DNA from: Paenisporosarcina sp. FSL H8-0542
GTDB lineage: Bacteria > Bacillota > Bacilli > Bacillales_A > Planococcaceae
Reading direction: 5' to 3'
NCBI RefSeq assembly: GCF_038632915.1
Contig: NZ_CP152050.1
Coordinates: 545,001 to 600,000 of the forward strand
DNA: 55,000 nt
The notes below the pieces were generated by a model, which did not search any database, was not told where the DNA came from, and was given only the letters and a program-made list of their open reading frames with translations. Position numbers and translations under genes: made by a program. Of the stretch, positions 5,757-9,612 are shown piece after piece. Position 1 is the first letter of the stretch. Each line of letters opens with the position of its first letter.

Positions 5757-6204
5757 ATCAGTCAGCTATAGAAAAATGACCTTTGACGATATTGACGGGG
5801 TCTTGAGAATTGAACATGAAGCCTTCAGTCAACCCTGGACACGCGATGCGTTCGTTCAGGAGATGACAACAAACTTGCATGCGTATTATTTAATCGCTGA
5901 AGATGAAGATCAACAAATTGTAGGTTTCTGTGGGATGTGGCTCGTAATGGACGAAAGCCATATCACAAACGTCGCAGTGACCGAGCATGTGAAAGGCCAA
6001 GGAATCGGGGAAGGACTTATGCGTGAAGCGATTCGAGTGGCAAAAGAGCATGGTGTAGTGCTGATGACGTTGGAAGTACGTGTTAGTAATACGATCGCTC
6101 AAAATCTGTACCGTAAATTAGATTTTCAAAATGGTGGAATCCGAAAAGGTTATTATTCAGATAACCATGAGGATGCACTGGTGATGTGGGTGGAATTCAA
6201 ATGA
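5749..6204 (+). CDS. rimI: Ribosomal-protein S18-alanine N-acetyltransferase RimI
   Basis: A 151-residue GNAT acetyltransferase. RimI transfers acetyl from acetyl-CoA to the N-terminal Ala of ribosomal protein S18; bacterial homologues may also modify other proteins. The acetyl-CoA loop V-x-G-Q-G-I-G is visible ([11 protein letters not shown]), followed by LEVRVSN and [10 protein letters not shown], which are typical of RimI. I chose the ATG at 5749 (MSESVSYRK) over an in-frame GTG at 5719, because the 10 extra residues lie inside tsaB and do not look like the family. The stop overlaps tsaD by 4 bases. B. subtilis equivalent: ydiD. Confidence 0.93.
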
Positions 6205-7220
6205 CGAAAGATCAAATTATATTAGGTATTGAAACAAGCTGTGATGAGACGGCTGCATCAATTGTGCGTAATGGAAGAGAAATCGTATCCAACGTCGTTT
6301 CATCTCAAATCGAAAGCCATAAACGCTTCGGGGGAGTAGTCCCAGAAATCGCTTCTCGACACCATGTAGAGCAAGTGACAATCGTGATTGAAGAAGCTTT
6401 GAAGCAAGCGAATATGCAGCCAAGTGATTTGGATGCTGTAGCTGTTACCGAAGGACCAGGACTTGTCGGTGCATTGCTAATCGGTATCAATGCCGCAAAA
6501 GCATTCGCATTCGCAAATCAATTGCCTCTAGTTGGGGTTCATCATATAGCAGGGCATATTTATGCCAATCAGTTAGTGGAGCCTATGCAATTTCCTTTAT
6601 TGGCCCTGGTCGTATCAGGCGGGCATACGGAAATAGTATTAATGAAAGAACATGGTTCGTTTGAGCTGATTGGAGAAACGCGTGATGACGCGGCAGGGGA
6701 AGCGTATGACAAAGTAGCCAGAGTGTTGAAGCTTCCTTATCCAGGTGGTCCGCATATTGACAGGTTAGCGCATGAAAGCGAAGAAGCTATCGCATTTCCA
6801 CGTATTTGGTTGGAAGAAGGATCGTATGATTTCAGCTTCAGCGGCTTGAAGTCATCGGTCATCAATTATATGCACAATGCTGAACAGCGTGGTGAAGAGA
6901 TTAAACCACAAGCAGTTGCTGCAGGTTTCCAAAACAGTGTGGTTGAAGTGCTCACAGCGAAGACAATGCGTGCAGCCAAGCAATTTAACGTTAAGCAAGT
7001 AATTGCAGCTGGTGGAGTTTCTGCGAACAAAGGATTGCGAAAATCGCTGGAAGACACTTTTGCAAAAGAAGGAATTCCGTTTACAGTTCCACCTTTGTTT
7101 TTATGTACCGATAATGCGGCAATGATTGCTGCTGCTGGCTCCGTTATGTTCGAAAAAGGGATTACAAGTACACTGGCAATGAACGGCAGACCAGGTATGA
7201 CATTATTCGACTGGAATTAA
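6201..7220 (+). CDS. tsaD: tRNA N6-adenosine threonylcarbamoyltransferase TsaD
   Basis: A 339-residue catalytic subunit of the t6A complex (formerly Gcp/YgjD). It transfers the threonylcarbamoyl group from threonylcarbamoyl-AMP to A37. Visible signatures: [14 protein letters not shown] at the N-terminus, metal-binding HHIAGHIYA at about residue 110, LVVSGGHTE, and the C-terminal [13 protein letters not shown]. The length is normal. The start is ATG at 6201 inside the rimI stop (ATGA), with GGTGGA upstream; a longer in-frame GTG at 6186 is less likely. Last gene of the operon, followed by a strong terminator. Confidence 0.96.
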
Positions 7221-7221
7221 G

Positions 7222-7262
7222 AAGAATCGATTCTCTAATAAAAGAGAATCGATTCTTTTTTA
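7222..7262 (+). terminator. Terminator of the tsaE-tsaB-rimI-tsaD operon
   Basis: A perfect 14-bp stem, AGAATCGATTCTCT / AGAGAATCGATTCT, with a 6-base loop, running into TTTTTT just after the tsaD stop. Confidence 0.93.
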
Positions 7263-7301
7263 GCAAAAATGAATTGTGATGTCAATAGAGAACATCTGTA
7301 C

Positions 7302-7460
7302 TTATGCACATTTTGTGGACAACTTGTGTATAAGTGACTGGAATTCAATATATAGTGGTACGATTTACATTGAAGTATGTGTATAAAAACTTTTTCCCCT
7401 GTGGATAGTGTGCATAAGTCTGTTGATAGATTGATATATCAACCTTTTGCATGTGAATAA
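7302..7460. promoter_or_regulatory. DnaA-box cluster between tsaD and ydiF
   Basis: Five perfect matches to the DnaA box TTATNCACA lie within 159 bases. One is TTATGCACA at 7302-7310. Four are in the opposite orientation: TGTGTATAA at 7325-7333 and 7378-7386, TGTGCATAA at 7409-7417, and TGTGAATAA at 7452-7460. Two one-mismatch boxes sit between them: TGTGGACAA at 7314-7322 and TGTGGATAG at 7400-7408. The region is AT-rich and gene-free, between two convergent genes, so it is not a promoter. No dnaA or dnaN is nearby. It most likely titrates DnaA or regulates replication timing. Confidence 0.85.
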
Positions 7461-7494
7461 ATTTGTGGAAAGAAAAATGTCGAAATTTGTACTT

Positions 7495-7512
7495 GACCCA
7501 TATATATGGGTC
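7495..7512. repeat. Perfect 18-bp palindrome next to the DnaA-box cluster
   Basis: GACCCATATATATGGGTC reads identically on both strands. It lies between the last DnaA box and the ydiF terminator. No T run follows directly, so it is not a clear terminator. It could be a protein-binding site. Confidence 0.5.
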
Positions 7513-7522
7513 TTTAATAGTA

Positions 7523-7552
7523 AGAAAATACCGCATGTTTTGACTTGCGGTA
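7523..7552 (-). terminator. Terminator of the ABC-F gene
   Basis: On the minus strand, TACCGCA and TGCGGTA (7-bp stem) are followed by TTTTCTTA, starting a few bases after the stop of the gene ending at 7557. Confidence 0.7.
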
Positions 7553-7556
7553 ACAG

Positions 7557-9488
7557 TTAATATGATTCTAACTCTTCTTCTAATTCAACCCATTCTGTCA
7601 TGAATGTTTCTTGTTCTTCTTTATAAGCATCCAGCTCTGTTTGAAGGGTCATTAATTGCGTATGATCTTGGAAAATGGCTGGGTCACATAATTTTTCTTC
7701 CACAGCATTAATTTGTTCCTCAATTGTTTGTAATTGAGTTTCAAGGTCTTCCAAGCGTCTTGTGATTTGTCGTTCCCGTTTCTTTGCCTCTTTATCGATG
7801 GTAGAAGTGGATTGCTTCGCCGTTGCAGCTTCTATTGCTTTAGGACCTGCTTGCTCAGCTCGAATTTCTTCTAACTCTTTTTTCTTTTCGACATAGTAAT
7901 CGTAATCACCTAAATATTCAAAGGCACCATCACTTGATAACTCAATCACTTTCGTGGCAATCCGGTTAATAAAGTAGCGGTCATGTGATACGAATAGGAT
8001 CGTACCGGGATAGTCGATTAAGGCATTCTCCAGTACTTCTTTGCTATCAAGATCCAAATGGTTAGTTGGCTCATCGAGAATCAAGGTGTTGGCTTTCAAC
8101 ATCATCAGTTTCGCCAAAGCAACACGCGCTTTTTCCCCGCCTGATAATGAAGAAATCGATTTAGTCACATCATCACCACTGAACAGGAATCGTCCTAACA
8201 CATTCCGGACATCTTTCTCATTCATTAATGGCCATTCGTCCCACAATTCTCTCAGTACGGAGCGAGTTCCCGTCAATTTTGCCTGTTCCTGGTCATAGTA
8301 ACCGAATTGAACATTGGTCCCGTAATGTATGGATCCAACTATCGGTGGGATATCCTTAACCACCGTTTTCAGTAAAGTGGATTTCCCGACACCGTTCGGT
8401 CCGACCAGGGCGATGCGGTCTTCACGGAATACACGGAGATTGACGTCCTGAGAGACAGGTTTCCCAGAATAACCGACTGTTACATCCTGCACTTTCAAGA
8501 CGTCATTGCCACTTTGACGGTCAATAGAAAATCCGAAATTCGCAGATTTTTCATCCCCGTCCGGCGAATCCATCCAATCCGTTTTCTCCAATACTTTGCG
8601 ACGCGACTGTGCCATCTTAGTCGTGGAAGCCCGTGCAAGGTTACGTTGAACAAAATCTTCAAGTTTAGCTTTTTCCTCTTGTTGCTTATCAAATGTTTTC
8701 ATATCACGTTCGTACGTCTTGGCCTTTTCATCCAAGTAAGCACTATAATTACCTACAAAACGTTTCACTTTGTGACGAGAAACTTCATATACAAAGTTCA
8801 CGACTTGATCAAGGAAGTAACGGTCATGCGAAACGATAAGTATCGCACCAGGATATCCTTGAAGATAACGCTCCAGCCAGCTGAGCGTATCGATGTCCAG
8901 ATGATTCGTCGGCTCATCAAGAATCAGTAAATCTGGCTTCGTTAATAATAATTTAGCCAATGCCAGTCGAGTTTTTTGACCACCCGATAGCGATTGAATT
9001 GGTTTTGTGTATTCTTCAGGGAAGAATTGCATTCCGTGGAGGACGGAGCGGGTATCCGCTTCATACTGATAGCCACCGGAGTCTTTGAATGCCACTTGTT
9101 TATTGTCATAGTCAGACATGATACGCGCATAAGACTCAGCGTTTTCATATACTTCGGGATTCGCCATTTGCTGTTCCAGGGAACGCAATTCTCTTTCAGC
9201 AGCCCGGTGATGCTCAAAAATGGTCATCATTTCGTCCCAAATAGATAAGTCGGAGTCAATGCCTGCATGCTGTTCCATATAACCGACTTTTGTGCCTTTA
9301 GGAATGATGATTTCTCCAGAGTCATACGACATTTCACCTGCAATAATTTTCAGGAGTGTCGACTTTCCGGCACCGTTTCGTCCGACTAAAGCCACACGGT
9401 CACGATGGTTGATTTCAAGTTTGACACCGCTTAATATTTCATCGACGACAAACGATTTATATAATTGATTCACTTGTAAGACAATCAT
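7557..9488 (-). CDS. ydiF: ABC-F family ATP-binding protein (YdiF-like)
   Basis: A 643-residue soluble protein with two ABC ATPase domains and no membrane segments, the ABC-F architecture. Walker A motifs are GRNGAGKST (N-domain) and GPNGVGKST (C-domain). Signatures are LSGGQKTR and LSGGEKAR, and Walker B is ILDEPTNHLD in both. A charged linker separates the domains, and a Glu/Lys-rich coiled coil (about the last 100 residues) ends the protein. ABC-F proteins act on the ribosome E site to relieve stalling; some give antibiotic protection. The housekeeping position beside tsaD suggests the YdiF type rather than a resistance factor. The start is ATG at 9488 with GAGGTGG 5 bases upstream; an in-frame GTG at 9509 is unlikely. 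Confidence 0.93.
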   Translation of the reverse strand: MIVLQVNQLYKSFVVDEILSGVKLEINHRDRVALVGRNGAGKSTLLKIIAGEMSYDSGEIIIPKGTKVGYMEQHAGIDSDLSIWDEMMTIFEHHRAAERELRSLEQQMANPEVYENAESYARIMSDYDNKQVAFKDSGGYQYEADTRSVLHGMQFFPEEYTKPIQSLSGGQKTRLALAKLLLTKPDLLILDEPTNHLDIDTLSWLERYLQGYPGAILIVSHDRYFLDQVVNFVYEVSRHKVKRFVGNYSAYLDEKAKTYERDMKTFDKQQEEKAKLEDFVQRNLARASTTKMAQSRRKVLEKTDWMDSPDGDEKSANFGFSIDRQSGNDVLKVQDVTVGYSGKPVSQDVNLRVFREDRIALVGPNGVGKSTLLKTVVKDIPPIVGSIHYGTNVQFGYYDQEQAKLTGTRSVLRELWDEWPLMNEKDVRNVLGRFLFSGDDVTKSISSLSGGEKARVALAKLMMLKANTLILDEPTNHLDLDSKEVLENALIDYPGTILFVSHDRYFINRIATKVIELSSDGAFEYLGDYDYYVEKKKELEEIRAEQAGPKAIEAATAKQSTSTIDKEAKKRERQITRRLEDLETQLQTIEEQINAVEEKLCDPAIFQDHTQLMTLQTELDAYKEEQETFMTEWVELEEELESY

Positions 9489-9612
9489 GAATTCCACCTC
9501 AGTTCTCACTTAGTTTAATGGATGCCAGGAACTCATGCAACGACTGAACTTTACTTCTCTCATCTACTCATGTAAGATGAAAGCGATTTCGCTTGAATGC
9601 AGGAGGAACGGC

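Follow-up and report, generated by a model that had tools for sequence, protein, structure and literature searches.

Tandem DnaA boxes behind tsaD in Paenisporosarcina and their conserved place, orientation and spacing in the Bacillota

The gap between gcp (tsaD) and ydiF is one of eight regions of Bacillus subtilis DNA that bind DnaA with high affinity in vitro (PMC4447404). In the part of that paper available to us it appears as region 4 of the top 20, “downstream of gcp; downstream of ydiF”, with 10 sites; the apparent Kd is 0.15 uM with ATP and 0.33 uM with ADP, and 16-fold more of the region is recovered with ATP-DnaA at 55 nM. According to the same source the regions are too few to define what gives a site its preference for ATP-DnaA, and other B. 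subtilis clusters act on promoters. An earlier note on the DNA described here had tentatively placed such a cluster near gcp(tsaD)-ydiF, and region 4 is that cluster. The note also held that clusters away from oriC restrain initiation. This stands for six B. subtilis clusters outside oriC, the joint deletion of which leads to early initiation (Okumura 2012, cited through PMC5295017 and PMC13220808), but as far as the available parts of these reviews go it does not stand for gcp-ydiF singly. We presume that gcp-ydiF was among the six by subtracting the two regions at oriC from the eight strong ones. In the reviews the clusters of B. subtilis serve to hold DnaA and have a strong effect only when taken together (PMC5295017, PMC13220808, both seen in part), and according to one of them no cluster with a significant role has been identified in this species (PMC5295017). 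The accessible portion of a further paper, PMC545597, names gcp only as a peptidase and has DnaA boxes only in a reference.

In Escherichia coli, initiation is likewise influenced by non-coding loci with DnaA boxes at a distance from oriC, namely datA, DARS1 and DARS2 (PMC13220808, PMC4585315, from the parts available). The E. coli DnaA protein favours close tandem pairs of boxes with a gap of 2-3 bp (PMC11317965, in part). B. subtilis has neither IHF nor datA/DARS loci, and no regulator of the nucleotide switch of DnaA is known in this species, according to the accessible sections of one review (PMC13220808). The site described below differs from datA and DARS in that no dependence on IHF has been shown for it. 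The genes that surround the E. coli loci are also different from those at tsaD-ydiF.

The window, by which we mean the whole stretch of DNA that was analysed, comprises 55,000 nucleotides of Paenisporosarcina sp. FSL H8-0542 (NZ_CP152050.1, positions 545,001 to 600,000), and coordinates are positions within it unless given in kb or Mb of the genome. The tsaD (gcp) open reading frame lies on the plus strand (6186..7220), matches an annotated tsaD in a phage collection at 61% identity, has a match in 141 of 141 genomes and anchors the cluster with its 3' end. Its convergent neighbor on the minus strand (7557..9509) encodes an ABC-F type ATPase and is taken to be ydiF on the basis of sequence recognition and the gene order in B. 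subtilis. The two genes are separated by 336 bp of non-coding DNA. A simple terminator scan of this gap found none, whereas RNA folding yields two clear hairpins: an intrinsic terminator of tsaD with an 18-bp stem and a T run (7219..7260, plus strand, -23.5 kcal/mol) and a terminator-like hairpin of ydiF (7529..7552, minus strand). The folding agrees with the previous description of terminators on both sides, and the tsaD hairpin is retained in all six aligned gaps from the same genus, one of them from the same species.

Five exact and two one-mismatch DnaA boxes had been reported between 7302 and 7460, six of the seven in one orientation, and a motif scan recovered every one of them. Exact matches to TTATNCACA start at 7302 (plus) and at 7325, 7378, 7409 and 7452 (all minus), and there are no others in the 55 kb window. 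Box 1 (7302..7310, exact TTATGCACA) is followed on the minus strand by box 2 (7314..7322, TTGTCCACA, one mismatch), box 3 (7325..7333, exact TTATACACA) and box 4 (7378..7386, again an exact TTATACACA), whose offset of 76 from box 1 is common to L003, L004, L005, L007 and L008, five of the named loci considered below. Box 5 (7400..7408, minus, CTATCCACA, one mismatch) abuts box 6 (7409..7417, minus, exact TTATGCACA) in a 9-bp step, and box 8 (7452..7460, minus) is an exact TTATTCACA. Two additional minus-strand boxes with two mismatches each are recognised by their conserved offsets, box 7 (7421..7429, CTATCAACA) at 12 bp from box 6 and box 9 (7464..7472, CTTTCCACA) at 12 bp from box 8. Counted from box 1, the nine boxes start at 0 (plus) and then at 12, 23, 76, 98, 107, 119, 150 and 162 (all minus).

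The genome, a single contig of 3,629,232 bp, contains 205 exact boxes and 135 copies of the reversed motif. This is one box per 17.7 kb, and the earlier estimate of one exact match in about 33 kb was too low a rate. At the observed rate the whole genome should contain approximately 4e-8 runs of five boxes in about 159 bp, and when the gap was resampled 20,000 times with a first-order model, five boxes were never reached. The site shares with the B. subtilis cluster an array of many boxes far above chance. Among five genomes of the same genus the identity to the window is 94% for box letters, 78% for the spacers within the cluster and 86% for the remaining gap; none of 10,000 permutations gave a difference between boxes and spacers as large as this. 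Since the remaining gap is also more conserved than the spacers, conservation there is not confined to the boxes.

The closest known system is the B. subtilis region: the array of many DnaA boxes lies in the same gene gap, and the B. subtilis summit, at 628 kb in a chromosome of 4.2 Mb (PMC4447404, in the part available), compares with 552 kb of 3.63 Mb here, in a genome that belongs to a different family. The kind of site is known, namely the B. subtilis DnaA-box cluster at gcp-ydiF. In the literature available to us we found no report of its place, orientation and spacing across many families of the phylum, of the sister site at comFC or of the family motifs described below; Okumura 2012 and Ishikawa 2007 may mention part of this. 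The oriC of the same genome is also dense in DnaA boxes, but dnaA is 552 kb away and the tsaD-ydiF boxes mostly point one way; the earlier statement that this is not the usual dnaA-dnaN origin is correct, as the site is not next to dnaA-dnaN.

To describe the conservation of the site we used 140 genomes that had been picked by family before any boxes were counted, 20 from the window's family (f1), 80 of the 130 genomes of its class outside that family and 40 of 135 from other classes, with some places at contig ends left out. Identical coordinates put Planococcus sp. SK3692 into family f1 and Clostridiales bacterium PH28_bin88 into f72. A cluster was scored when the 600 bp past the tsaD stop contained at least two exact boxes in a span of 300 bp. 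The cluster is present in all 20 genomes of the window's family, in 44 of the 80 from 38 other families of the class (24 of these families) and in 27 of the 40 from other classes (24 of 37 families). At least three boxes near the tsaD stop are found in 18 of 20, 35 of 80 and 14 of 40, respectively. The reversed and five permuted control motifs gave no cluster in any of the 140 genomes, and each later 600-bp bin had one in 0 of 20 genomes of the family, 1-2 of 80 of the class and 0-3 of 40 of other classes. Counting over 4 kb downstream of tsaD brings the total to 102 of 140 genomes; by family the figure is 53 of 76, leaving 23 of the 76 sampled families without a two-box cluster within 4 kb of tsaD. 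The earlier note had supposed conservation of the tsaD-ydiF gap in a family other than that of B. subtilis; the cluster is conserved in every sampled genome of that family and far more widely than was supposed, and what it accompanies is the 3' end of tsaD, not the tsaD-ydiF pair. A view restricted to tsaD-ydiF was dropped, as other classes keep the cluster though ydiF is not within 4 kb.

A separate set of 80 named loci found through TsaD includes 38 with at least two exact boxes clustered 3' of tsaD, 35 of them among the 43 loci L001-L043 and three among the 37 loci L044-L080 (L045, L052 Alkaliphilus, L057). The positives in L001-L043 include Planococcus, Lysinibacillus, Sporosarcina, Neobacillus, Anoxybacillus, Halobacillus, Brevibacillus, Paenibacillus, Saccharibacillus, Macrococcus, Jeotgalicoccus and Kroppenstedtia. 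Six of the eight negatives there end about 600 bp or less past tsaD, and the other two, Shouchella (L022) and Marinococcus (L027), have gaps of only 44 and 59 bp. The Lachnospiraceae and Erysipelotrichaceae loci have no cluster, though several end shortly past tsaD. Paenibacillus-type loci with inserted genes carry the cluster about 2.5-3.5 kb from tsaD, in several cases adjoining ydiF. The three high-GC genomes (66-67%) of family f6 have three boxes each, but several other high-GC genomes have none or one.

On a TsaD tree of 141 rows the presence of the cluster needs 21 changes compared with a mean of 33.5 after shuffling, and none of 500 shuffles was as low. On either side of the midpoint split most rows have the cluster, a pattern compatible with an ancestral site that was lost in some lines; the tree, a quick one with some long branches, cannot separate gain from loss. 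A branch made up of families f4, f16, f26 and f34 lacks the cluster in 10 of 10 genomes. Absence from this branch and from 23 of 76 families implies that the site is dispensable, and the branch offers a natural test of what replaces it. In f16, where three of three genomes have no tsaD cluster, one genome (L273) has 19 exact boxes in the 4 kb around dnaA.

The orientation and spacing of the boxes are conserved as well as their place. Within the first 600 bp, 268 of the 333 exact boxes in the 140 genomes are opposite to tsaD. Steps were measured between pairs on the strand opposite tsaD, one box exact and its partner with at most one mismatch; among the 53 families with a cluster a step of 9 bp occurs in 37, of 12 bp in 37 and of 21 bp in 32. 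No more than 0-4 families have a step of 10 or 13-19 bp, while 11 bp is seen in eight, 20 bp in seven and 22 bp in ten, with weaker peaks at 42-44 and 51-54 bp. Triplets at offsets 0,12,21 are found in 40 of 140 genomes, at 0,9,21 in 27 and at 0,11,22 in 21, and nine other sets in 0-3; several step orders therefore exist. Aligning the 26 families with a 0/12/21 triplet, where conservation of the boxes is built in because the logo is anchored on them, the non-box letters are mostly weakly conserved with some preference for G/A right after the box. The E. coli double boxes in tandem with a 3-bp gap correspond to the 12-bp step, while the available part of that paper has no description of the abutting 9-bp step or of longer arrays (PMC11317965).

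Abutting pairs also show how specific the position is. In other classes the matches listed, at most 150 places, contain 68 exact pairs (TTATNCACATTATNCACA) in 46 genomes with tsaD. The first 1 kb on the 3' side of tsaD holds 30 of them, in 28 genomes and always on the strand opposite to tsaD, whereas the 1 kb upstream holds none. If one mismatch is tolerated, 50 of 139 listed pairs are by the 3' side of tsaD, in 43 of 62 genomes; this count omits G439 and G451, which have no tsaD match, and G452, whose one pair (with one mismatch) is on a different contig from its tsaD (if it is included, the pairs become 50 of 140 and the genomes 43 of 63). The reversed tandem motif was seen among the matches listed once each in 16 of 139 genomes. 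In the window's class 110 of 141 genomes contain an abutting pair at any position. A similar arrangement behind tsaD in so many Bacillota families suggests an old site for the control of chromosome copying and not a chance run of boxes; that 53 of 76 families have a cluster with shared orientation and steps is a reason to test the single site, and the arrays form a large natural set from which the underlying rules could be read.

The 3' side of comFC is a second recurrent place for tandem boxes in other Bacillota classes, where comFC is presumed from phosphoribosyltransferase and zinc-ribbon matches in six proteins. Among the matches listed it accounts for 14 of 65 exact pairs and, with one mismatch, for 26 of 133 pairs in 26 of 58 genomes, all 26 on the comFC strand; genomes without a comFC match and G452 are omitted (with G452, 26 of 134 pairs and 26 of 59 genomes). 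Twenty second tandem sites, chosen by hand, were fetched, among them L258-L272. In some loci the comFC site is followed by an S30AE-type (hpf) or an amino-acid ABC transporter gene. In the window's own genome the comFC match (2,663,944-2,664,492) has no exact box within 1 kb among the matches listed.

Three elements of the gap that are not DnaA boxes are conserved within the window's family. The 12-mer GAACNNNNGTAC (7290..7301, plus strand) abuts box 1 and is found with at most two mismatches in 17 of the 20 genomes of the family; joined to the box it is kept with at most one mismatch in nine of nine named loci (L001-L009), and similar letters occur in two Macrococcus loci and in families f9 and f38. 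Searching for the bare 12-mer with two mismatches gives 24 of 140 genomes near tsaD, including 17 from the window's family, versus 9 of 140 in a far control stretch, and the 21-mer of element and box is found in 21 versus 2. An AT-rich CAATATATAGTG (7346..7357, no strand assigned) between boxes 3 and 4 has a similar 12-mer with one mismatch in 10 of the 20 genomes of the family. Past the last box, TTGACCNATATATA (7493..7506, plus strand) has a similar 14-mer with two mismatches in 15 of those 20 genomes and in 2 of 140 far control stretches, and a promoter-like match on the plus strand (7493-7521) coincides with it. Simple holding of DnaA gives no explanation for GAACNNNNGTAC and TTGACCNATATATA.

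We also considered a LexA/SOS box for GAACNNNNGTAC. The element resembles the SOS consensus (GAACNNNNGTTC) but keeps GTAC, and no LexA site is claimed; CGAACNNNNGTTCG with one mismatch is found less than 900 bp from tsaD in 5 of 140 genomes, none of them in the window's family, and in 2 of 140 in the far control.

The gene that follows the cluster varies in orientation and kind. Simple ORF calling was applied to 92 genomes that have a cluster near tsaD. In the window's family the next gene converges on tsaD in 16 of 20 and is co-directional in 3; elsewhere in the class the figures are 16 and 25 of 45, and in other classes 1 and 24 of 27; the remaining cases are overlaps of ORF calls or a gene in between. 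The earlier inference that the cluster is not a promoter holds in the window, where the genes converge and no gene has the array upstream of it, but is only local, since many genomes outside the family (25 of 45 and 24 of 27) have the array by position upstream of a co-directional gene. Outside Bacilli 20 next genes are of seven unrelated kinds: nine for radical-SAM proteins (most with PDZ or DUF512 matches), five for prolipoprotein diacylglyceryl transferase, two for 5-formyltetrahydrofolate cyclo-ligase, and one each for LytR-type, Mur-ligase-type, histidine-kinase-type ATPase and 2Fe-2S thioredoxin-like proteins. This variation between families means that the site stays with tsaD instead of with any one gene under its control, although a local operator role is not excluded. 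The distance from tsaD to dnaA is 6-36% of genome length in 55 of 55 genomes, with a median of 14% and 15% here, and tsaD is transcribed away from the origin in 54 of the 55 (some genome lengths were rounded to 0.1 Mb, and G118, where the place of tsaD is not listed, was left out). Gene order alone may explain the conserved distance.

On balance we favour, with moderate confidence, the reading that the tsaD-ydiF array is orthologous, judged by gene gap and box array, to the gcp-ydiF cluster of B. subtilis and forms part of an old Bacillota element on which ATP-DnaA assembles in order and is sequestered from oriC. Several DnaA molecules, preferentially ATP-DnaA, would line up on the head-to-tail boxes, which are set at steps of 9, 12 and 21 bp. 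Such a site would be copied early, being about 15% of the chromosome from oriC here, and its duplication after initiation could then draw free ATP-DnaA off oriC, a removal that would help to prevent early or repeated initiation. One-way boxes at set steps suit an ordered chain of DnaA and, together with the pair preference in E. coli (PMC11317965) and the B. subtilis data, favour high-affinity assembly, so far as these partly available sources go. That DnaA binds here in this organism, that cooperative assembly is the cause of the spacing and that a single site has a sequestering role are all inferred, without binding or phenotype data. The boxes could instead be a passive sponge, one among many, each bound independently and with no special design. 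A strong B. subtilis phenotype only when all six clusters are gone is what interchangeable sponges predict (PMC5295017, PMC13220808, in part), but independent boxes require no fixed spacing or orientation, yet the 9-, 12- and 21-bp steps dominate. The cluster upstream of tsaC/ywlC, sought in 30 genomes of which 29 have tsaC, has at least two exact boxes in only 1 of 29 (0 of 27 in other classes), a contrast that also speaks against the sponge but is one-sided because all 30 genomes were chosen for having the tsaD cluster; we find a mere sponge very unlikely.

A more active role, in which the arrangement of the boxes causes bound DnaA to hydrolyse its ATP or swap nucleotides as at E. coli datA/DARS and so alters the activity of DnaA beyond merely holding it, would be in keeping with the recurrent steps and orientation (the 9-bp step in 37 of 53 families), with extra non-box elements that could bind a partner protein and with the ATP preference of the B. 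subtilis site (PMC4447404, from the part available). This is unlikely in our judgement, as cooperative high-affinity binding alone could equally produce the spacing, and B. subtilis lacks IHF and datA/DARS and has no known regulators of the nucleotide switch (PMC13220808, as far as seen). The co-directional next genes, the promoter-like match on TTGACCNATATATA and the action of other B. subtilis clusters on promoters (PMC4447404, in part) might mean that the cluster is an operator through which DnaA controls the next gene or else an antisense transcript; against this, the genes converge in the window, the 20 next genes in other classes fall into seven unrelated kinds and the gap has one promoter-like match compared with a shuffle mean of 2.7, and we think transcription control distinctly improbable. 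Almost no credence is given to a relic or auxiliary origin: box arrays do look like oriC arrays, but the site is 552 kb from dnaA and its AT-richest 30 bp is 80% AT versus 93% in dnaA-dnaN. Runs of DnaA-trios are in no excess at the site, nor in the oriC control. Beyond the favoured sequestering assembly, it is possible, and put forward only tentatively, that the whole is an ancestral Bacillota element for DnaA control with an architecture of its own, a counterpart of datA/DARS in which assembly of ATP-DnaA sets the timing of initiation. This joint proposal takes in the head-to-tail 9- and 12-bp steps, the sister site at comFC in other classes and, in the window's family, the abutting GAACNNNNGTAC for an unknown partner.

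Elsewhere in this genome, the matches listed and seven fetched stretches reveal further clusters at oriC (both sides of dnaA), upstream of tsaC/ywlC, at rlmH/yydA and at about 735.8 kb, and the matches listed include an adjacent pair of boxes between mnmE and jag; the gene names are presumed from sequence recognition. This survey covered the best 100 of 205 and 100 of 119 places and, beyond about 3.07 Mb, only the fetched stretches. All except the cluster at 735.8 kb match B. subtilis regions (dnaA upstream and downstream, ywlC, yydA and trmE/jag), and that cluster has no counterpart among the regions named in the available part of the paper (PMC4447404). It consists of three exact boxes in 99 bp (735.7-735.8 kb, L112:1723-1821) before an acetyltransferase-like gene. 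In this genome tsaD (551-552 kb) and tsaC/ywlC (2.93 Mb, L111), which belong to the same tRNA modification pathway, each adjoin a DnaA-box cluster.
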